Of a stretch of 64,000 bases of DNA, positions 3,305 to 31,803 are shown one piece after another. This DNA is from Mesorhizobium onobrychidis. Lineage in GTDB: Bacteria > Pseudomonadota > Alphaproteobacteria > Rhizobiales > Rhizobiaceae. The position numbers were made by a program, and so were the translations under genes. Every line of letters begins with the position of its first letter. The first letter of the stretch is position 1. The stretch lies in contig NZ_CP062229.1 of the NCBI RefSeq assembly GCF_024707545.1, positions 6,305,501 through 6,369,500 on the forward strand, read 5' to 3'. The notes beneath the pieces were generated by a model that saw only the letters and a list, made by a program, of their open reading frames with translations, ran no database searches and was not told the origin of the DNA.

Positions 3305-4222
3305 TCACAGCTCCTTGCGGATGTCGACGATGCGCAGAATGCCGGCGACCATCAAGAGCACCAGAACCAGGAGCACGACCGCGTTGGCGGCCGCTGCCGG
3401 ATATTGCAGCAGCGACATCTGGTTCTTCATCATCAGCGCGACAGAGGCGCTCTGTCCGCCGGACATCACCTGCACCGTCGAAAAGTCGGCCATCACCAGC
3501 GTGACGACGAAGATGGTGCCGATCGCCATGCCGGGCTTGGCGAGCGGGATGATGACGTTCCACAACACCTGCCAGCCGGAAGCGCCGGCATCACGCGCGG
3601 CCTCGATCAGCGACTTGTCGATGCGCATCAGCGTGTTGAAGATCGGCGTCACCATGAACAGCGCGTAGAGATGCACCATGGCCAGCACCACGGCGAATTC
3701 CGAATAGAGCAGCCATTCGATCGGCTTCGGGATCAGTCCGATCTGCACCAGCGTCGAGTTGACCAGGCCGTTGCGGCCAAGCACCGGAATCCACGAGATC
3801 ATCCGGATGATGTTGGAGGTCAGGAACGGCACAGTGCAGACAAGGAACAGCACCATCTGCATGGCGGTGGTCCTGATATGGAAGGCGAGGAAATAGGCGA
3901 CCCAGAAGCCGACGAACAGCGTCAGCGCCCAGACGATGGCGGCGTATTTCAGCGTGTTCAGATAGGTTTTCCAGGTGACCCAGGAGCCGAGCGTGTCGGA
4001 ATAGTTGGTGGTCAGGAAATCCGGGTACATCGCCGCGAAGTCGTAGTCCCAGAAAGAGACCACGGCGATCATCAGGATCGGCAGCAAAAGGAACGCGCCG
4101 AGGATCAGCGCCAGCGGTGTCGCCTGGAGATAGGGGACGATCGCGCCGATCGAGAAACGGCCGCGCCTGGCGGGTTTGGCGGCGGCCATTGCAGGGCGTT
4201 CGAGCGCAACTGTCATGAACAT
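3305..4222 (-). CDS. ABC transporter permease, spermidine/putrescine type (PotB-like)
   Basis: A 305-residue inner-membrane permease. A cytoplasmic N-terminal stretch of about 30 residues is followed by six predicted helices and the EAA loop IEAARDAGASGWQVLWNVIIP at about residues 215-235. It forms a heterodimeric channel with the downstream PotC-like permease. An insertion-type repeat lies between it and the binding-protein gene, so its transcription continues through that repeat. The ATG at 4222 is used; a second in-frame ATG lies two codons later. Confidence 0.85.
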   Translation of the reverse strand: MFMTVALERPAMAAAKPARRGRFSIGAIVPYLQATPLALILGAFLLLPILMIAVVSFWDYDFAAMYPDFLTTNYSDTLGSWVTWKTYLNTLKYAAIVWALTLFVGFWVAYFLAFHIRTTAMQMVLFLVCTVPFLTSNIIRMISWIPVLGRNGLVNSTLVQIGLIPKPIEWLLYSEFAVVLAMVHLYALFMVTPIFNTLMRIDKSLIEAARDAGASGWQVLWNVIIPLAKPGMAIGTIFVVTLVMADFSTVQVMSGGQSASVALMMKNQMSLLQYPAAAANAVVLLVLVLLMVAGILRIVDIRKEL

Positions 4223-6831: not shown

Positions 6832-7093
6832 CCGGCTTCCTTCTCTAAATCAACTTAAGCAAAGCATCATGCATGCCAATTGCCCTCCATCGACCTCAAA
6901 CAATTGATTCCTTGGGAAAATCGGACTCGCATCCGGCTGCCCGCCGAAACGACACGCTTATGCGATGCACAAATTATAGGCGATAGCCGGCGATTCGCGC
7001 AAAAATCGTATGCAATCTTTTCTGACATCGCATTCACTTTGGCCCTCGTGCAAGCGACCCGATTCAGGGTAGAAAGGCGCAGGGACCACCATC
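6832..7093. promoter_or_regulatory. Divergent promoter region between PotA-like operon and GntR gene
   Basis: This 262-base AT-richer spacer must carry both outward promoters. It holds possible GntR/FCD half-sites: CGTATGCAATC near 7007-7017, GCATGCCAATTGCC near 6871-6884 and GATGCACAA near 6964-6972. The GTATGCAAT core recurs in front of another GntR-controlled operon at 14326. No clear sigma54 box was seen. The binding sites are inference from repeated motifs. Confidence 0.4.
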
Positions 7094-7807
7094 ATGAATA
7101 TAGCCGACCAGACTTTCCCTGCTGTCGACAGTGCCAACGAGGATCGCGCCCAGGCAATCCGCGACCAGTTGCGCGACGCGATCGTCGATCGCCGGCTGGC
7201 GCCCGGAACCAAGCTGTCGGAAGGCGAGGTCGGCACTTTGTTCGATGTCAGCCGCACCGTGGCGCGCGCGGCGCTGCAGATGCTCTCCTTCGAAGGCTTG
7301 GTGCGGATCGAGCGCAATCGCGGCGCCTTCGTCGCCAACCCGTCGCCGGAGGAAGCGCGTCAGGTCTTCGCTTCGCGCCGGCTCATCGAGCCCGGCATCG
7401 CGATTGCCGCAGCCGGGCGGATGACGCCGGACCATGTCGCTGCCTTCAAGGCGCAGCTCGATGAAGAGGGCCGCTTCATTGCCGAACGCGGACCAAATGC
7501 AAGACGCTCGGAAATCAAAGCTTCGGGCGATTTTCACCTTCTGCTGGCTTCGGTTGCCGGAAACGCGATCCTCCAGCGCTTCATGGAAGAGCTGGTGGCG
7601 CGGTCATCGCTGGTGATCGCGCTCTATGGCCGCTCGGGCGTGTCGAGCTGCGGCCATAGCGAGCACATGAATATCCTCGAGGCGCTGGAAAATGGCAATT
7701 CCGAACGGGCCAGCGCACTGATGCTGCACCACATCGACCATATCGAGGCCGACCTCGATCTGCGCGTCAGGAGCGGTCCGGCACTCAGGCAGGCACTCGA
7801 ATTCTGA
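7094..7807 (+). CDS. GntR family transcriptional regulator (FCD subfamily)
   Basis: A 237-residue regulator. The N-terminal winged helix-turn-helix spans about residues 15-85 (LAPGTKLSEGEVGTLFDVSR and the wing LVRIERNRGAFVANPS). The C-terminal all-helical FCD ligand-binding domain spans about 95-225, with the histidine- and asparagine-rich pattern of FadR-like sensors (SGDFHLLLASVAGN, LMLHHIDHIEADL). It is divergent from the PotA-like operon and most likely its regulator, released by the imported substrate or a catabolite. Confidence 0.88.
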   Translation: MNIADQTFPAVDSANEDRAQAIRDQLRDAIVDRRLAPGTKLSEGEVGTLFDVSRTVARAALQMLSFEGLVRIERNRGAFVANPSPEEARQVFASRRLIEPGIAIAAAGRMTPDHVAAFKAQLDEEGRFIAERGPNARRSEIKASGDFHLLLASVAGNAILQRFMEELVARSSLVIALYGRSGVSSCGHSEHMNILEALENGNSERASALMLHHIDHIEADLDLRVRSGPALRQALEF

Positions 7808-7963: not shown

Positions 7964-8548
7964 TCAAAAAGCTTGGGCCGCCATGGCCATTCCAACCAGC
8001 GAGGTGGCGATCCCAGCGGTGCGGACCGTCATCGGCCAACGAGCGAGCTTGAAGACGGACAACACCCCGATCGCATGCAGCATCGACGTGCCGAGCATGA
8101 AACCAGCGGCGTAGGCGATGCCGCTGGCGCTCTCGGAGATCTCGAGGCCGTGGGCGTTGCCGTGAAAGAGGCCGAACAGGGCTGTCAGTGCTGCTGCGGC
8201 GGCCAGCGGCAGCGGCCGGGCAAGGCCGACCATGGCACCAAAGGTCACGAGCGACAGCGCGATGCCGGTTTCAAGGGAAGGCAGGCCGATGCCGGCCATG
8301 CCGAGCAAGGCTCCGGCGACCATGGCCGAGACAAAGAACAGCGGCACAAGGACGATACTGCGCCCGCTGGCCAGAGCGCCAATCATGCCGACCGCGACCA
8401 TGGCGAGCAGATGATCCATGCCGAACAGCGGATGTTCGAGGCCGGCGAAAAAGCCGTAGACGTGAGCGCCGCCGCTATGGGCGAACGCCAGCGAAGGTAT
8501 GAGCGCGGCGAGAGATGAAAGGGTGCCAAGTCTTGCGAATGTTTTCAT
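7964..8548 (-). CDS. HupE/UreJ family nickel permease
   Basis: A 194-residue membrane protein with a cleavable-looking N-terminal signal segment and six to seven hydrophobic helices. The family motif HPLFGMDHLLAMVAVG follows the first segment, and a second histidine motif, GLFHGNAHGLE, is in the middle. Both are the metal-binding signatures of HupE/UreJ nickel or cobalt transporters. It is the last gene of the guanidine operon, 38 bases after the His-rich protein. Nickel supply to the nickel-dependent hydrolase two genes upstream is the natural reading. Confidence 0.85.
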   Translation of the reverse strand: MKTFARLGTLSSLAALIPSLAFAHSGGAHVYGFFAGLEHPLFGMDHLLAMVAVGMIGALASGRSIVLVPLFFVSAMVAGALLGMAGIGLPSLETGIALSLVTFGAMVGLARPLPLAAAAALTALFGLFHGNAHGLEISESASGIAYAAGFMLGTSMLHAIGVLSVFKLARWPMTVRTAGIATSLVGMAMAAQAF

Positions 8549-8586
8549 GGTTGTACCTGGTTGATAAGAGTGACCGGGTTCTGGTT

Positions 8587-9129
8587 TCAGTGCCCGGGAA
8601 CGGCGAATTGCGAAGCCGCGGAACGGTCCGTAAGGGCACGCGCCGCGGCGAAGCCGAGCGGCTTTTGCTCAGTGCCATCGTGATAGATGAAAGCGAGGCG
8701 GCGGCGGTGCGATGTCAGGCGCGCCGGCAACGGGTGATAGGCGACGCCGGTGCCACCGACGAGCGGCATGACCGCGCCGACGTCGACCAGATCATCGGTT
8801 TCGACGCGAAGCAGATGAAGCCGCACGCCGTCCGCCCTCTCGCCGACAAAGGGTATGCCGGCCAGACGCAGAAAGCTGGATGGGTCCGGCGCCCGGGCAA
8901 AGCCTTCGAGGAAGGCGGTTTCGACAAGATCGAGGTCGACCGATGCGGGATCGGCGGGTGGCTCGTGAGCCTGGTCATGCGCCAGATGCGGCGTCTGCCA
9001 TTGCAGCGGCTTGCCAGCGGGTCCGTTGTGGCCGAGGGCGTGCGGATGGTCATGACGACCATTCGGGCCATGATGATGGTGGTGACCGTCGCCATGGTCA
9101 TGACTGTGGTGGTGATGATCGTCGTGCAT
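8587..9129 (-). CDS. Histidine-rich protein, candidate nickel chaperone of guanidine hydrolase
   Basis: A 180-residue cytoplasmic protein of no recognised family. Its first 34 residues include 16 histidines (HDDHHHHSHDHGDGHHHHHG and more), a metal-binding tail like those of HypB or UreE. The remaining part (about 60-178) is a compact alpha/beta domain with no cysteine motif and no Walker A, so it is neither HypA nor HypB. The ATG at 9129 lies three bases after the hydrolase stop; an in-frame TTG at 9135 would overlap that stop. Placed between the hydrolase and a nickel permease, it probably stores or inserts Ni2+. The role is inference. Confidence 0.7.
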   Translation of the reverse strand: MHDDHHHHSHDHGDGHHHHHGPNGRHDHPHALGHNGPAGKPLQWQTPHLAHDQAHEPPADPASVDLDLVETAFLEGFARAPDPSSFLRLAGIPFVGERADGVRLHLLRVETDDLVDVGAVMPLVGGTGVAYHPLPARLTSHRRRLAFIYHDGTEQKPLGFAAARALTDRSAASQFAVPGH

Positions 9130-9131
9130 GG

Positions 9132-10340
9132 TCAAAAACTCACCGGTTTGTCGATGATCGATTTATGCTTGCCGAGATTGCCGTGGGCGACCATCGAGCC
9201 GAGCGCCTCGACGACGACACGCACGCCGAACAGCGCGGTGATGTCCGACGTGTCGTAGGGCGGCGAGACCTCGACCACCTCCAGCCCGCAAATGCCGGGC
9301 GCCGTCACCAGCCCAAGCAGCTTGAGCGCCTCGCGCGGCAGGAAGCCGCCCGGCTCAGGCCAGCCCGTGCCGGGCACGAAACCGCAATCGAGGCTGTCGA
9401 CGTCGAAAGAGATGTAGACGGCGTCGGTGTCTTTCCATGCGAGTTCGAGCGCGATTTCCGCCGCCTTCTCAAGGCCTATCTGCTCGATGTCGGCAATGGT
9501 GAGCACGTTGGTGCCGCGCTTCCTCGCCTCGGCGACGCCGTAGCGGGGAACCTGCCAGCCGCCGATGCCGAGCTGCACGAGATTGGTCGCCGAGACGTTC
9601 GGCAGGTTGGTCGCCCAATACCAGGGCGTGGTGTGCATGCGCTCGTCGAGATCCTTTTCCTGGATGTCGATATGGCGGTCGAAATGGATGATGCCGATGC
9701 GTTTCGAGGTCACGTCGGCGATGCCGCGCACGCAGGGAAATCCAATCGAATGGTCGCCGCCCAGCATGATCGGCAGCGCGCCGGACGAGGCGACATGGCT
9801 GACGCCCTTGGTGATCTGGTCGAAGCTTTTTTCGAGATTGGCGGGAATGGTGAAGACGTCGCCGGCGTCGCACAGCGTCATCTGCTCGCGCAGGTCGACG
9901 CCGAGCTCGTAGTTGTACGGCGTGTAGAGCGCCGAGATGCGACGAATGCCTTGCGGCCCGAAGCGGGTTCCCGGCCGGTAGGTGGTGCCGCTGTCGAAAG
10001 GGATGCCGATGACGGCAGCATCATATTTGCCGACGTCGCGGACGTTCTCGACATAGGGCGCCTTGAGAAAGGTATTGATGCCGGCGAAATGCGGCAGCTC
10101 GCCGCGCGCGAATGTCGGGATCGACTTGTCGACGATCGACTCCGATCCCGGCAGGCCCATGTCGAGCGCCCATTGCTGCTCTTTGCGCCAGCCGCTTTCC
10201 GGCAGCTTGCCCTCGGCCTCGATCGACTTCCAGCCCTGGGTGCCGCGCGCGTCGAAATCCGGGTGGTGGAAGCGTTCCCTGGCCTCCCGGGCGACCAGCC
10301 CTGCCCGGCGGTGGCTGCGTTCGGGGATATTTCTGGACAT
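9132..10340 (-). CDS. gdmH: Guanidine hydrolase candidate (arginase/agmatinase superfamily)
   Basis: A 402-residue ureohydrolase. The dinuclear metal ligands are all present: H197 in GGDHS, D221/H223/D225 in HFDRHIDIQ, and D313/D315 in SFDVDSLD. The roughly 100-residue N-terminal extension before the catalytic core resembles the nickel-dependent guanidine hydrolase of cyanobacteria (Sll1077) rather than short agmatinases. The operon starts with a guanidine-I riboswitch, includes a dedicated importer and ends with a nickel permease. The expected reaction is guanidine plus water to urea plus ammonia. By homology alone it would be called agmatinase; the riboswitch decides for guanidine. Confidence 0.85.
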   Translation of the reverse strand: MSRNIPERSHRRAGLVAREARERFHHPDFDARGTQGWKSIEAEGKLPESGWRKEQQWALDMGLPGSESIVDKSIPTFARGELPHFAGINTFLKAPYVENVRDVGKYDAAVIGIPFDSGTTYRPGTRFGPQGIRRISALYTPYNYELGVDLREQMTLCDAGDVFTIPANLEKSFDQITKGVSHVASSGALPIMLGGDHSIGFPCVRGIADVTSKRIGIIHFDRHIDIQEKDLDERMHTTPWYWATNLPNVSATNLVQLGIGGWQVPRYGVAEARKRGTNVLTIADIEQIGLEKAAEIALELAWKDTDAVYISFDVDSLDCGFVPGTGWPEPGGFLPREALKLLGLVTAPGICGLEVVEVSPPYDTSDITALFGVRVVVEALGSMVAHGNLGKHKSIIDKPVSF

Positions 10341-10352
10341 TCACGGTCTCCG

Positions 10353-11162
10353 TTACGACGCCGTCGTCGCCATTGCTGTATCCGGCCGGGTCGTCCCGAC
10401 CATCGCGGCCACCTTGGCCAAGTGATGAGAGGAAGCCCGGGTCTTGCGATCGAGCTTCAAATCGTAGGTGATCGTCGCGCCGTAAGCGGACGGGAACTGC
10501 GGATCGTGGCGCAGCTTGTCGAAAACCAGCACGCGGGTGCCGAGCTTGAAGGCCTCACCGATATCGTGGGTGACCATCACCACCGTCATGCCGTGCTCGG
10601 TCCACAGCTCGGTCAGCAGGTCGTGCATCTCGACGCGGATGCCGGGATCGAGCGCCCCGAACGGTTCGTCGAGAAGCAGGATCTGCGGACGGCCGAGCAA
10701 GGTCTGCGCAATCGCCAGCCGCTGCTGCATGCCGCCGGAAAGCGATGCCGGATAAAGGTCGCGCGCATGAGCGAGCCCGACGCGCGCCAGCATGGCCTCG
10801 GCCTCTTGCCTGGCCTTTCTGCGCCTGGCGCCGAAGACGCGGCCAAACGGCCCGCCCGAGCGAAAGTCTTCGACCAGCAGCAGGTTCTGCATGGCGGTCA
10901 GATGCGGAAATACCGAATAGCGCTGAAAGACAATGCCGCGCTGCGGCGTCGGCTCGGGCACGATCGGGCCATCGCCGACGATGACGACGCCGCTGCTCTG
11001 CTGCTCCTGGCCGAGCAGAATGCGCAGGAACGTCGATTTTCCGCAGCCGCTGGCGCCGACCAGCGATAGGAATTCGCCGGCCTCGGCGGTGACGTTGACC
11101 CGCTCGAGCACGCGGGCATCGCCATAACTCTTTTCCAGCCCGTGAACGACGATGCGGCTCAT
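10353..11162 (-). CDS. ABC transporter ATP-binding protein, TauB/SsuB type (guanidine importer)
   Basis: A 269-residue ATPase. Walker A is GASGCGKST (36-44), the signature is LSGGMQQRLAIAQ, Walker B is ILLLDEPFGALD and the H-loop is VTHDIGEAF. Its ATG at 11162 overlaps the permease stop by four bases, so the much longer upstream open frame is not coding. The C-terminal 60 residues extend past the nucleotide-binding domain without a clear TOBE fold. With the permease and binding protein it forms a nitrate/taurine-type importer; riboswitch control suggests guanidine as cargo. Confidence 0.88.
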   Translation of the reverse strand: MSRIVVHGLEKSYGDARVLERVNVTAEAGEFLSLVGASGCGKSTFLRILLGQEQQSSGVVIVGDGPIVPEPTPQRGIVFQRYSVFPHLTAMQNLLLVEDFRSGGPFGRVFGARRRKARQEAEAMLARVGLAHARDLYPASLSGGMQQRLAIAQTLLGRPQILLLDEPFGALDPGIRVEMHDLLTELWTEHGMTVVMVTHDIGEAFKLGTRVLVFDKLRHDPQFPSAYGATITYDLKLDRKTRASSHHLAKVAAMVGTTRPDTAMATTAS

Positions 11163-12070
11163 CTGGCCTCCAACGGATGCGCCCAAGGGGACATCGCTTG
11201 GGAAAGCCGCACCAGCAGCCAATCGGTGATGACGGCAAGCAGCGTGATCCAGGCGACATAGGGCAGGATGACGTCCATCGAGAGATAGCGGCGGACGAGG
11301 AAAATGCGGTAACCCAGCCCTTCGGTCGAGGCGATGGCTTCGGCGGCGATCAGGAAAAGCCAGGCCGGCCCGAGTGCCAGCCGCACGCAGGTGATGAGGC
11401 GCGGCATGACTTGCGGCAGCACCAGCCGCAAGACCATGGTCCAGCTGTTGCCGCCAAGTGTCTGTGCCTTGGCCACCAGTTCGGACGGCAACTCCATCAC
11501 CCGGTTGGCGATGTCGCGCACCATCACCGGCGCGACGCCGACGGCAATCAGCGTGATCTTGGCCGTTTCGCCGAGGCCGAGCGCGATGAACAGGATCGGC
11601 AGCAGCGCCAGCGGAGGGATGACGCAGACGACGGTGACGAAGGGCAGCAGGAAGGCGCGCACCCGCGGAATGAAGCCGATGGCGATGCCAAGCGAAAGCG
11701 CGGCGAACGTGGCAACGCCCACGCCCGCGAACAGCCTGAGGAGACTGGCATAGGTGTCGACCCACAGGATGAGGTCGCCGGAGCGTCTGTCCGGAACCGT
11801 CGCCAGGTCAAGAAAGGCCGACCACATCTGTGCCGGCGAGGGCAGCAGCTTGTCGCTGGGATTGACCGCCAGTCGTTGCGCCGAAGCGATCAGATAGACG
11901 ATCGCCACGAACAAGAACGGCAAGCCGCCGAGGAACAAGGCGCTGCCGCGCGAGACCTTCGCATTGATCATGCGAAGGCGCACCCTCGACCTCGGCCAGG
12001 AAGGGCGCGTGGTGCCCTCCCCGCCCGTCGCGGAGACTTCATCCCTGGCACTCATTCCCTTGGCCAGCAT
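11159..12070 (-). CDS. ABC transporter permease, TauC/SsuC type (guanidine importer)
   Basis: A 303-residue inner-membrane permease. A polar N-terminal region of about 40 residues is followed by six helices and the EAA-type loop (LVAKAQTLGGNSWTMVLRLVLP, about 200-221). The start is taken at the ATG at 12070, seven bases after the binding-protein stop; in-frame ATGs at 12055 and 11971 are alternatives, and the polar leader makes a shorter product possible. It overlaps the ATPase gene by four bases. The gene order (binding protein, permease, ATPase, hydrolase) parallels the cyanobacterial guanidine locus. Confidence 0.87.
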   Translation of the reverse strand: MLAKGMSARDEVSATGGEGTTRPSWPRSRVRLRMINAKVSRGSALFLGGLPFLFVAIVYLIASAQRLAVNPSDKLLPSPAQMWSAFLDLATVPDRRSGDLILWVDTYASLLRLFAGVGVATFAALSLGIAIGFIPRVRAFLLPFVTVVCVIPPLALLPILFIALGLGETAKITLIAVGVAPVMVRDIANRVMELPSELVAKAQTLGGNSWTMVLRLVLPQVMPRLITCVRLALGPAWLFLIAAEAIASTEGLGYRIFLVRRYLSMDVILPYVAWITLLAVITDWLLVRLSQAMSPWAHPLEAR

Positions 12071-12076
12071 GTCGCG

Positions 12077-13141
12077 TCAGGGCGTTGCGGTTGCGGCCTC
12101 GGCCATGAAGGCTGGATCGAAACGCAGCTTGACGTTTTTGGCGTCGCCCAGCGTGGATCCGTCGGGAAAGCTCATGCCGACCACGTCGACACTCGTCGCG
12201 TTGGTGCCTAGGATGCCGTGGCTGAACAGGAAGTTGCGGACCAGATCCATCGTCTTCGGCAATTCGGTGCCGTTGGTGAACTCGACCGCCTTGGCGGGGT
12301 CGAAGAACATTGCCGTCGAAGCAAGCTGCGCGTCGAAGCCGGCGAGGTCCGTACCGGACGCCTTGGCCATCTCCTCCTTGGCTGCCTTGCCTTCCGGCGT
12401 GTCCGAGCTCATCAGGTCCATCGCTTCGTACCACGCGCCGGCAAGCGCCTTGCCCAGCGCAGGGTTGTCCTTCAGCGTCTCGGTGTTGACGACCATCATG
12501 TCGATGATCTCGCCGGGAATCTGCGAGGAATCGAACACTTTGTGCGCACCCGGCATGGCGACGATCTCGGACACCAGCGGATTCCAGGTGACGACCGAGG
12601 TGACGTCGCTGGTGCCGTAGGCGGCGACCATGTCGGCGTCGGAGGTGTTGACGACGGTGATGTCCTTCTCGGCGAGCTTGACCGTGTCCAGCGCCCGCGC
12701 CAGCAGGTAATGCGAGACGGAGAGCTCGACGAGATTGACCTTCTGGCCGGCAATGTCGGCGAGCGCGGCCTTGTCCTTGAGGATCACGGCATCGTTGCCG
12801 TTGGAGAAGTCGCCGATGATCACGGCGGTGGTGTCGACGCCGCCGCCAGCGGGGATCGACAGCGCGTCCATGTTGGTCATCGAACAGCCGTCGAAGCCGC
12901 CGGCGGTGTACTGGTTGATGCTTTCGACATAGTCGTTGATGCGGGTGATCTCGACGTTGATGCCGTTTTTTTCAGCCCATTTCTTCATGATGCCGCTGTC
13001 GGAAAGATAGCCCCACGGCATCCAGCCGACATAGATCGACCAGCATATCTTGAAGTCTTTCTTGGGCGCCGCGTCGGCGGCGGAAATCATGGGAAGGCTG
13101 AGTGATGCGGCTAGGATGATTGCGGCCAGCTTGCGAAGCAT
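12077..13141 (-). CDS. ABC transporter substrate-binding protein, TauA type (guanidine-binding candidate)
   Basis: A 354-residue periplasmic protein with a Sec signal peptide ending near residue 24 (AASLSLPMISAADAA). The mature part has the NitT/TauT-type two-lobed fold, with an aromatic-rich opening CWSIYVGWMPWGYL that could cage a small cation. It is the first gene after the guanidine-I riboswitch; an AGGGG ribosome site lies about seven bases before the ATG. It should deliver guanidinium to the downstream permease. A related small cationic ligand cannot be excluded without binding data. Confidence 0.87.
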   Translation of the reverse strand: MLRKLAAIILAASLSLPMISAADAAPKKDFKICWSIYVGWMPWGYLSDSGIMKKWAEKNGINVEITRINDYVESINQYTAGGFDGCSMTNMDALSIPAGGGVDTTAVIIGDFSNGNDAVILKDKAALADIAGQKVNLVELSVSHYLLARALDTVKLAEKDITVVNTSDADMVAAYGTSDVTSVVTWNPLVSEIVAMPGAHKVFDSSQIPGEIIDMMVVNTETLKDNPALGKALAGAWYEAMDLMSSDTPEGKAAKEEMAKASGTDLAGFDAQLASTAMFFDPAKAVEFTNGTELPKTMDLVRNFLFSHGILGTNATSVDVVGMSFPDGSTLGDAKNVKLRFDPAFMAEAATATP

Positions 13142-13233: not shown

Positions 13234-13356
13234 GTGCAGGGTTCTCCCGGGATTTTGGCCCGCCGTGTTCCGCCGGATGCCTCAGTGCATCCCTGGCGGT
13301 CGCATCTCTTGGACCAGCACCGCTTTGTTGCGGCCGGAACCCTAGACGCTCTGCAC
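13234..13356 (-). ncRNA. Guanidine-I riboswitch (ykkC class)
   Basis: The 5' leader of the guanidine operon carries the ykkC signature blocks in order on the minus strand: CTAGGGTTCCG, CTGGTCCAAGAG, ACACGGCGGGCCAAAA and CCCGGGAGA. P1 closes the aptamer by pairing GTGCAG (starting at 13356) with CTGCAC (ending at 13234). Internal stems are CCGC/GCGG and the hairpin CCGCC-A-GGGATGC/GGCATCC-GGCGG. This class binds guanidinium and normally raises expression when ligand is present. It identifies the downstream genes as guanidine related. Confidence 0.93.
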
Positions 13357-13496: not shown

Positions 13497-14201
13497 CTAG
13501 GAAGATATCCCGATTGAATCCACCGCCGGTTTCATCGGGTCAACCGCGGCAAAGACGGCGCTCGCCTCGCTGACGATGGAAACGTGATCCTTGGCTGCAT
13601 GCCCTGCGGCAGCGCTGTCGCCGCGCATGATCGCGGTAACGATGACGTCATGCTCCTGCCAGGATTTGGCCAGGCGGCCCGGCAGCATGAATTGCGCGCG
13701 CCGAAACGGCGCCAGCCGGCTGCGCGTCATGACGGTCAGTTCATAGATGTGCTTGCTGTGCGCGCCGCGATAGAGCCGGGTGTGGAACTCGGTGTTGAAA
13801 TACTCGTAATCCTCCTCCGCACCCAGCTGCACGAGACGCGCCGATAGCTGGTGCTCGATTTCGAGCGCGCGGCGCTCGGCGGTGGTCATGCGCTCGGCTG
13901 AGAACCGCGCGCAGATCGCTTCAAGCTCGGCCATGCTCTCGAACATCGAGGCAAGGTGCTCCTGCGTCACCACGGCGACGGTGGCGCCCCGGTTGGGCCG
14001 CCTTTCGACCAGCCCCATGGCGCTCAGCCGGCCAAGCGCCTCCCTGACGGGGGTGCGCGACACATCGAAACGGGCAGCCAGCGAGGCCTCGTCGAGCTTT
14101 TCGCCGGGGCGCAGGAACCCGGTGACGATCCGGTCGCCGATCGCCCTCACCATCTGATCGACGGTCGTGCCCGACCTGATCAAGCTGCGCTTCCCCGACA
14201 A
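13497..14201 (-). CDS. GntR family transcriptional regulator (FCD subfamily)
   Basis: A 234-residue regulator with an N-terminal winged helix (about 10-80: GEKLDEASLAARFDVSRTPV, then GLVERRPNRGATVAVV). The C-terminal FCD domain (about 90-215) has a metal/ligand-type pattern (NTEFHTRLYRGAHSKH, HAAKDHVSIV). It is divergent from the biuret/triuret operon, whose promoter overlaps a candidate site for it. It also backs onto the guanidine operon promoter with 113 bases between, so an effect there is possible. Likely a repressor responding to a substrate of the 14.5-22.8 kb operon. Confidence 0.87.
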   Translation of the reverse strand: MSGKRSLIRSGTTVDQMVRAIGDRIVTGFLRPGEKLDEASLAARFDVSRTPVREALGRLSAMGLVERRPNRGATVAVVTQEHLASMFESMAELEAICARFSAERMTTAERRALEIEHQLSARLVQLGAEEDYEYFNTEFHTRLYRGAHSKHIYELTVMTRSRLAPFRRAQFMLPGRLAKSWQEHDVIVTAIMRGDSAAAGHAAKDHVSIVSEASAVFAAVDPMKPAVDSIGISS

Positions 14202-15629: not shown

Positions 15630-16772
15630 ATGGCAGACACCGTGAGCAGTGCGAGCGTGCCAGTGATGCTCGGCGCCCGAGGCTATCCGACGGCGCTCGA
15701 ATGGATCGCCCGGCGGGCGGAAGCCTTCGTCATCCCGCTCGCGGCGCTGATTGTCGGCATGGCCCTGTTCAGCCTGTTCATCGCGCTGGTCGGCAAATCG
15801 CCGGCGCAGCTCTATGAAACGATGTGGCGCGGCGGCTTCGGCTCGTGGTTCTCGATCCAGAACTCGCTGTCGCGGGCCGCACCCTTGCTGCTTGCGGCGC
15901 TCTGCGTGGCGCTGCCGGCCCGGCTCGGCCTCGTCGTCATCGGCGGCGAAGGCGCGATCGTGCTGGGCGGCGTGGCCGCCGCTGCAACTGGCGTGGCCAC
16001 CAGCGGCACGCCGGCCTTTTTCGTTGTACTTGCCATGGGCGTGGCGGGCATGGCCGCCGGCGGCATCTGGATCGGTGCCGTCGGCGCGCTACGCCACTAC
16101 CGTGCCGTCAACGAAACCATATCGAGCCTTTTGATGGCCTATATCGCCATCGCCCTGATGAACCATCTGGTGGAAGGGCCGCTGCGCGATCCCGCCTCGC
16201 TCAACAAACCTTCGACCGAGCCGCTGGCGCAGGCCTACCGCATCGGCAACATTGCGGGCATGGACGTGCATTGGGGCCTGGTCGTCGGTGTTATCGCATG
16301 CATTCTGTCCTGGCTGCTGATCGAAAAGACGCGCTGGGGGTTCGCCGCCCGCATCGCCGGCGGCAATGTCAGGGCAGCCCAGGTGCAGGGACTTGCCGTC
16401 GGACCGCTGATCGTCGGTTTTACCGCGCTGGCCGGCGGCTTCGCCGGTCTTGCCGGCATGCTGGAAGTTGCCGCCGTGCAAGGCAGCGCCAATGCTTCGC
16501 TCGCCGCCGGCTATGGGTATACCGGTATCCTGGTCGCCTTCCTCGCCCGCCACAATCCGCTCGCCATCATCCCGGTCGCGTTTCTGCTTGGCGGCATCGA
16601 CGCCTCAGGCGGCCTGATCCAGCGCCGCATGGATCTGCCCGACGCCACCGTGCTGGTGCTGCAAGGCATGCTCTTCGTCGTCATCCTGTTCAGCGAAACC
16701 TTCTACGGCCGCTTCAAGGCCTTCAATCCCGACCTCTGGCAGAGGCCCGATCTCTTGAAGGGGATTGCCTGA
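15630..16772 (+). CDS. ABC transporter permease, nucleoside/BMP type (subunit 1)
   Basis: A 380-residue branched-chain/ribose-type permease with 9-10 hydrophobic helices (YufP-like). Family landmarks are SRAAPLLLAALCVALPARLGLV and GLAVGPLIVGFTALAGGFAG. The start is the ATG at 15630 after GGAGACGGGGG. It shares one base with the following permease gene (TGATG), showing translational coupling. It forms a heterodimer with the next gene product. Confidence 0.87.
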   Translation: MADTVSSASVPVMLGARGYPTALEWIARRAEAFVIPLAALIVGMALFSLFIALVGKSPAQLYETMWRGGFGSWFSIQNSLSRAAPLLLAALCVALPARLGLVVIGGEGAIVLGGVAAAATGVATSGTPAFFVVLAMGVAGMAAGGIWIGAVGALRHYRAVNETISSLLMAYIAIALMNHLVEGPLRDPASLNKPSTEPLAQAYRIGNIAGMDVHWGLVVGVIACILSWLLIEKTRWGFAARIAGGNVRAAQVQGLAVGPLIVGFTALAGGFAGLAGMLEVAAVQGSANASLAAGYGYTGILVAFLARHNPLAIIPVAFLLGGIDASGGLIQRRMDLPDATVLVLQGMLFVVILFSETFYGRFKAFNPDLWQRPDLLKGIA

Positions 16773-31450: not shown

Positions 31451-31803
31451 GTGACGCCACCCGGCTTTTTCGGTCCCGCACCCTTCTGCATCTGCCGCCT
31501 CCCACGCGACGTAGTGTGGAAGGCAGACGCATATGGATCGCTTACGGCAAAGCCGGCAGTCCCAGTTCATGGTTCGCCGACCACAGCTGATTTGCCGAAA
31601 TCGCACGAAAAAAATAGCCGGGCTCGAATACGGCCCGGCCAAAAGAAGGTTACAACCTTCAGAGGGGAACGCCGTTCAACGGAATGGGAGGAAACCGTCG
31701 AACGGTCTTACCTGTTTGAGCTTGTTTGGGCGTGTTGGCGACGAACAAAATTCCAAAAGCCGGCGGGATAACGAAAATTCCCGTTCTATTTGCTCTAACC
31801 TCT
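31451..31803. other. Intergenic stretch downstream of oxygenase gene
   Basis: This 353-base gap between the broken exporter and the oxygenase gene contains no convincing gene on either strand. Its one clear element is the terminator-like hairpin at 31608-31640. It also holds the upstream region of the frameshifted exporter. Confidence 0.6.
31608..31640 (-). terminator. Rho-independent terminator
   Basis: On the minus strand GCCGGGC pairs with GCCCGGC around a nine-base loop and is followed by TATTTTTTT. It lies about 165 bases downstream of the minus-strand oxygenase gene ending at 31804, which it probably terminates. Confidence 0.75.

Follow-up and report, generated by a model that had tools for sequence, protein, structure and literature searches.

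We describe a family of small proteins, HRP (His-tailed partner protein), that is a real and widespread partner of the guanidine hydrolase GdmH in many bacteria of soil and sea; the pairing is nearly exclusive. The window, the whole stretch of 64,000 nucleotides of Mesorhizobium onobrychidis DNA that was analyzed, contains one such pair, and HRP is present as a single copy in the 7.55-Mb source genome. The reading we favor, at a probability of roughly 0.68, is that the pair belongs to a guanidine-assimilation operon, presumably induced by guanidine, and that HRP is a dedicated GdmH activation factor that would deliver nickel (Ni) in place of HypA and HypB. The operon lies on the minus strand, and runs from riboswitch through the substrate-binding protein (SBP), permease and ATPase of an ABC transporter to the hydrolase, HRP and HupE:

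13242..13356 (-), guanidine-I riboswitch aptamer (RF00442, 70.9 bits, E 1.4e-10; gathering score 63)
12077..13141 (-), ABC transporter substrate-binding protein (TIGR03427, 547.5 bits, cut-off 333.9)
11159..12070 (-), ABC transporter permease (PF00528, E 4e-19)
10353..11171 (-), ABC transporter ATPase (PF00005, E 2.1e-30)
9132..10340 (-), GdmH-type guanidine hydrolase, 402 aa (PF00491, E 1.3e-75; best PDB matches 7esr/7oi1 and 9fek)
9135..9167 (-), candidate docking element, the hydrolase's C-terminal tail ...HKSIIDKPVSF (motif comparison)
8587..9129 (-), HRP, 180 aa (open reading frame; His-rich tail ~1-60, core ~61-170)
7964..8548 (-), HupE/UreJ-family permease, an optional component (PF04955, E 5.5e-51, 173 bits, cut-off 23)

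The aptamer matches its covariance model above the gathering score and stands upstream of the guanidine genes, before those of the ABC transporter; the sequence-only reading of this DNA was right to place a guanidine riboswitch at the head of the unit. It was also right that a 180-residue protein with 16 His in its first 34 residues directly follows the hydrolase (the ATG of HRP lies 2 nt past the hydrolase stop), and that a HupE-type permease comes next, starting 38 nt past HRP. The segment to which it confined itself, 7964..10340, does hold these three genes, but the unit extends further: its first half, with the ABC genes and the riboswitch, lies outside. The model matched by the SBP is named for a putative urea ABC transporter; given the guanidine riboswitch upstream, it probably binds guanidine rather than urea. 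The operon has a GntR/FCD regulator on either side, at 7094-7807 (+) and 13497-14201 (-), neither of them part of the riboswitch unit, and elsewhere in the window an ar15 family sRNA is found at 31613-31707 (-), with 42.8 bits against a gathering score of 40.

The hydrolase is of the GdmH type. The motifs GGDHS, FDRHID, SFDVD and TGWPEPGG are all intact, and the first three of these, the ureohydrolase metal motifs, presumably carry the metal ligands. Its nearest solved relatives are guanidine hydrolases, 7esr/7oi1 (E 2.4e-162) and 9fek (1.5e-155), with the next family far behind at 9.3e-50. Of these structures, 7OI1 is GdmH of Synechocystis and 9FEK the guanidinase of the comammox bacterium Nitrospira inopinata (PMC11410670). 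The window enzyme shares 99-100% identity with its counterpart at 11 Mesorhizobium loci, and is predicted to act on guanidine, a substrate that the riboswitch supports. GdmH and the metformin hydrolases are reported to rely on Ni and on Ni chaperones (PMC11399263, PMC11271267).

HRP itself resembles nothing named. The window protein matches no Pfam family at E 0.1, and its sole row in NCBIfam, DmeF, scores 12.8 bits where the cut-off is 250. None of 104 aligned family members has a convincing Pfam match, and the family profile finds no convincing match among PDB sequences. The HypA domain, PF01155, is absent from the nine families matched by any of the 104 members at E 0.5, which carries a zinc-binding Cys motif, and the core of HRP has no Cys in 34 of 42 members. 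Neither the window protein nor the 104 members match a P-loop GTPase family, such as that of HypB and UreG. These Pfam and NCBIfam searches thus found neither a P-loop nor a HypA domain in HRP, in agreement with the initial impression. Nor was a description of HRP found in the open-licence literature, in Pfam, in NCBIfam or in the PDB; as far as we have searched, and as had been surmised, the family is apparently undescribed. It is not small. Searches of ~5.8 billion proteins returned 1422 matches to the part of HRP outside the His tail, and 1032 matches to a member from Rhodobacterales, two sets that may overlap; among the best 120 listed from each, the names are 'hypothetical' or 'uncharacterized'. 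One PDB entry, 2qng, was considered as a relative and set aside, since the match takes in no more than a tag-like run of His at the start and one short segment besides. An apparent HRP-HupE fusion (P0013) looks like readthrough from HRP across the intergenic DNA into a truncated HupE, and was left out of the evidence.

In 42 sequences chosen for diversity the tail contains from 1 to 25 His (median 15), and eight core residues are invariant: F73, F77, D82, L106, G118, P122, Y131 and P135. The same 42 sequences have no conserved His or Cys in the core. In a predicted structural model the tail is of low confidence and has no secondary structure, and the core (~71-170) is predicted well, with block means of 90 or more. 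Because some members have hardly any His tail, the family is defined by its core rather than by its His run: the tail of one member (L107, 9141-9473) has a single His, and that of another (L105, 3967-4323) has four. At L107 the open frame of HRP starts at the end of the hydrolase, which leaves no space for a long tail. The description of HRP as a His-rich family is therefore apt for most members but not for all. Two database proteins, P0197 and P0212, are apparently one gene with two starts, one of them without the His tail, and other database copies may lack the tail through such a choice of start.

Pairing was followed through samples of the source strain's order, class and phylum, which have some genomes in common. 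Within the order, GdmH was found in 32 of 297 genomes, in 31 of which HRP shares its contig and strand and is separated from it by 4 to 480 nt; among the 265 genomes without GdmH, HRP was found in none. Seven of 289 class genomes have GdmH (E 1e-90 or better) and all seven have HRP (hypergeometric P 2.6e-13, relatedness ignored). The phylum sample yields seven genomes with GdmH out of 398, all alphaproteobacterial and, again, all with HRP. A lack of linkage between HRP and GdmH in other genomes had been named at the outset as one of the observations that would refute the proposal; at 31/32 against 0/265 the two are linked, and the proposal was not refuted on this count. In these searches, only the top candidates of a first look were scored (at most 12 for HRP and six for GdmH), and absence means none at the thresholds used. 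The HRP profile, A1, comprises the 42 diverse sequences and includes the seven class genomes; HRP in those seven was first found with a profile built from proteins of the 1422-match search only. At least two of the 31 order genomes (G000 and G365) are also in A1, and the overlap may be larger. In a set of 72,556 plasmid records, GdmH occurs in 11 and HRP in seven, and GdmH adjoins HRP in all seven. Five of the HRP records are from Sinorhizobium fredii, and the four GdmH records without HRP are from Actinomycetota.

Closer to the window, the 80 nearest loci with GdmH (the top 80 out of 571; 83-100% identity) all have HRP, and in 78 it lies downstream on the same strand. In Jiella endophytica (L060) HRP is kept at 16236-16700 (-), ~7 kb from GdmH and on the other strand. 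At L077 the contig stops 98 nt past the hydrolase match, and the His-rich beginning of HRP can already be read in those bases. Because HRP is conserved beside the hydrolase even down to ~30% identity, the adjacency is not due to chance. An eighth genome of the class sample, with no GdmH at E 1e-90 (G125), has only a start-less 3' piece of HRP at ~7085-7342, which suggests that loss of the hydrolase is followed by decay of HRP. The single exception in the order sample is a GdmH-like gene in G817 (contig C17, 8177-9508, -). This enzyme is 54-56% identical, does not have the IDKP C-terminal tail, and is followed directly by HupE; no riboswitch above the gathering score was found in the 18-kb stretch around it. 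A GdmH-like gene without HRP counts against the activation-factor reading. If translation of this hydrolase starts upstream, the N-terminus of the enzyme itself is His-rich over a short distance.

The other components of the operon come and go. The SBP and permease are absent from 18 of the 80 nearest loci (at 45% identity), and a HupE-like gene lies within 7.5 kb in 43 (33 downstream, 10 upstream). No HupE was found within that distance at the other 37, and GdmH and HRP are kept there; the search used a profile of the common HupE cluster and frames of at least 90 aa, which divergent copies may escape. HupE is therefore not the fixed part of a nickel route that it had been taken for, and the idea that HRP belongs to the HupE or the ABC module can be set aside, since the pair stays when either is missing. 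The large open frames behind HRP at 17 HupE-less loci were inspected by eye for Ni transporters; L073 had no such frame, and some of the frames are perhaps false. In Ancylobacter (L024 and L028), where the ABC genes are absent, gdmH-hrp comes immediately after the riboswitch, and the smallest unit is thus riboswitch, hydrolase and HRP. A riboswitch above the gathering score was found in seven of 10 HRP-bearing loci scanned, the exceptions being L052, L104 and L126. The window HupE scores above the cut-off of the HupE/UreJ family, and is a putative nickel permease. Certain members of this family are reported to transport Ni, and a predicted cobalt branch also belongs to it (PMC2667541). The window gene differs from other members in standing in a guanidine riboswitch operon; in the wider set of loci it is optional.

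These patterns bear on a reading of HRP as a store rather than a helper. HRP might be an operon-induced buffer for Ni (or Zn), comparable to Hpn or to the His tails that SlyD and HypB carry, that protects the cell during import by HupE; insertion into GdmH would then be spontaneous, or would use other factors. The variable length of the His tail fits, as does the position of HupE next to HRP in the window, and SlyD and the His-rich regions of some HypB proteins are thought to serve in storage (PMC7055735). HRP, however, is kept at the 37 loci where no HupE was found nearby, and at L107, where the tail is almost free of His. And apart from the one relic, it was not found without GdmH, when a general buffer would be expected to be less enzyme-specific. 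We regard storage as an unlikely primary function.

The hydrolases that have HRP as a partner share a further feature, a C-terminal tail resembling HKxxIDKPVSF. Of 93 HRP-type loci, a first tail pattern fits 91; a relaxed pattern, set after sight of the two misses, fits all 93 (89 distinct, four contigs having been counted twice). Neither fits any of the 120 best listed of 4557 hits to an actinobacterial GdmH profile, hits that were chosen by profile match irrespective of HRP neighbors. The chance of a match to the relaxed pattern is ~0.005 per protein. The N. inopinata chain stops two residues past the aligned part and so is without the tail, and the Synechocystis chain fails to align with the IDKPVSF region. 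The tail is perhaps a docking site for HRP. Common descent alone could explain the correlation, which is confounded with phylogeny because the tail-bearing enzymes are essentially one group.

A partner tail would also suit a subunit. HRP might be a structural or regulatory part of the hydrolase (a stabilizer, a gate for the narrow active-site tunnel, or an inhibitor), with the His tail secondary. Consistent with this are the conservation of a core that has no conserved His or Cys, the start of hrp 2 nt past gdmH, and the tail on GdmH itself. Yet the comammox enzyme, expressed alone in Escherichia coli, is reported to be an active homohexamer resembling Synechocystis GdmH (PMC11410670), and most HRP members retain a long His tail. 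A subunit role therefore seems to us improbable.

Are HypA and HypB really replaced? Among 50 genomes with GdmH and HRP, HypA exceeds its cut-off in 16 (two of the matches are partial) and HypB in 14, and every genome with HypB has HypA, too. Neither was found in 34 of the 50, or in 33 of 48 when two duplicates with identical coordinates (G365/G661 and G649/G682) are removed. Of the 50, 11 come from the genome samples and the others carry 39 of the 80 nearest loci; most MAGs and many of the nearly identical Mesorhizobium genomes were not included. Many of the 50 are drafts, and seven of the 11 whose quality is stated (completeness 93% or more) are without HypA. The source strain has both proteins; their genes lie ~231 kb away, beside those for hydrogenase subunits and HypF in a [NiFe]-hydrogenase cluster. 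In 97 neighborhoods its HypA has no match at E 1e-4, and its HypB has three weak ones (26-29% identity), of which one was verified as UreG. The idea that HRP would stand in for HypA/HypB, as first proposed, thus fits the 34 genomes with neither, but is less simple for the source strain.

Helpers encoded elsewhere might nevertheless load GdmH in trans, be they UreE/UreG of urease or HypA/HypB of hydrogenase, with HRP as a minor aid or an adaptor. The HypB model has a sub-cut-off match in all 50 genomes, at ~66-91 bits; the verified UreG scores 75.5 bits. Because these matches span the UreG range, urease helpers, if that is what the scores indicate, could serve as a Ni source for GdmH, and HypA and HypB are available in the source genome and in the 16 and 14 genomes counted above. 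Against this, 34 of the genomes have no HypA/HypB over the cut-off, those of the source strain belong to the hydrogenase cluster, and the strict order of HRP after GdmH is left unexplained. We consider metallation in trans to be distinctly unlikely as the main route. At one locus, L104, UreG (3649-4209) lies near the guanidine genes and a 5_ureB_sRNA match is found at 865-1149; production and use of urea seem to be clustered there.

The activation-factor reading begins with position: HRP stands where HypA/HypB helpers would be expected. Guanidine, sensed by the riboswitch, would turn on uptake by the ABC transporter, hydrolysis to urea and ammonia by GdmH, and the means of metallation. The conserved core of HRP would recognize the apo-hydrolase, perhaps by way of its IDKPVSF tail, and the flexible His tail would capture Ni, imported by HupE where present, and raise its local concentration at the active site. 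HRP would in this way fill the place of HypA/HypB (GhaA/GhaB) in cyanobacteria and in the metformin hydrolase operons. Ni binding, delivery and docking are steps that we infer. The main difficulty is that tail-based delivery cannot be universal, since L107 has but one His and L105 four; these two near His-free members suggest that the core weighs more than the tail. The absence of conserved His or Cys from the core also counts against this reading. The comammox enzyme is reported to be active and partly Ni-loaded although no such chaperone was found in the genome (PMC11410670), and thus GdmH can load Ni unaided. Co-expression of helpers in E. coli did not significantly affect the metformin hydrolase, and so operon neighbors need not be essential; the same helpers were, however, needed for growth on metformin (PMC11271267). 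A bolder version, in which HRP represents a GTPase-free class of nickel-insertion factors that docks on IDKPVSF, passes on Ni from its His tail, and has independently replaced HypA/HypB across Alphaproteobacteria, we offer tentatively, at less than even odds.

Comparison with known systems places HRP among them. The Synechocystis GdmH and picocyanobacterial guanidinase clusters are described as having the same riboswitch, hydrolase family and SsuA/Tau-type ABC transporter as the operon here, with accessory genes likewise in the cluster, namely hypA and hypB (PMC10119275, PMC8390497). Going by the published accounts, a HypA-type and a HypB-type helper (GhaA/GhaB) are thus encoded there, whereas here there is one protein with no GTPase match. 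The operons for metformin/dimethylguanidine hydrolase combine a Ni-dependent ureohydrolase with an adjoining HupE permease, together with hypA and hypB (PMC11399263). That combination is thus not new in itself; these operons differ in that the enzyme is heteromeric, with two ureohydrolase genes, and HRP is not mentioned in the available portions of that account. The comammox guanidinase belongs to the same enzyme family and also stands behind a guanidine-I riboswitch, but has an APC permease and, as far as the accessible text of the report goes, no Ni helper (PMC11410670). With SlyD, UreE, HypB and Hpn, HRP shares a His-rich stretch, carried on a small folded domain or standing alone; it has no sequence match to these families, and a comparison of folds gave nothing clear, a result with which a distant relation to UreE, SlyD or Hpn is compatible.

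The route by which Ni enters the comammox guanidine hydrolase without HypA/HypB has been called unclear (PMC11410670). For guanidine hydrolases without these helpers in Alphaproteobacteria, HRP is a ready candidate for the supply of Ni. If its role is confirmed, HRP could improve recombinant guanidine hydrolases, and Ni insertion would be shown to be possible without a GTPase helper.
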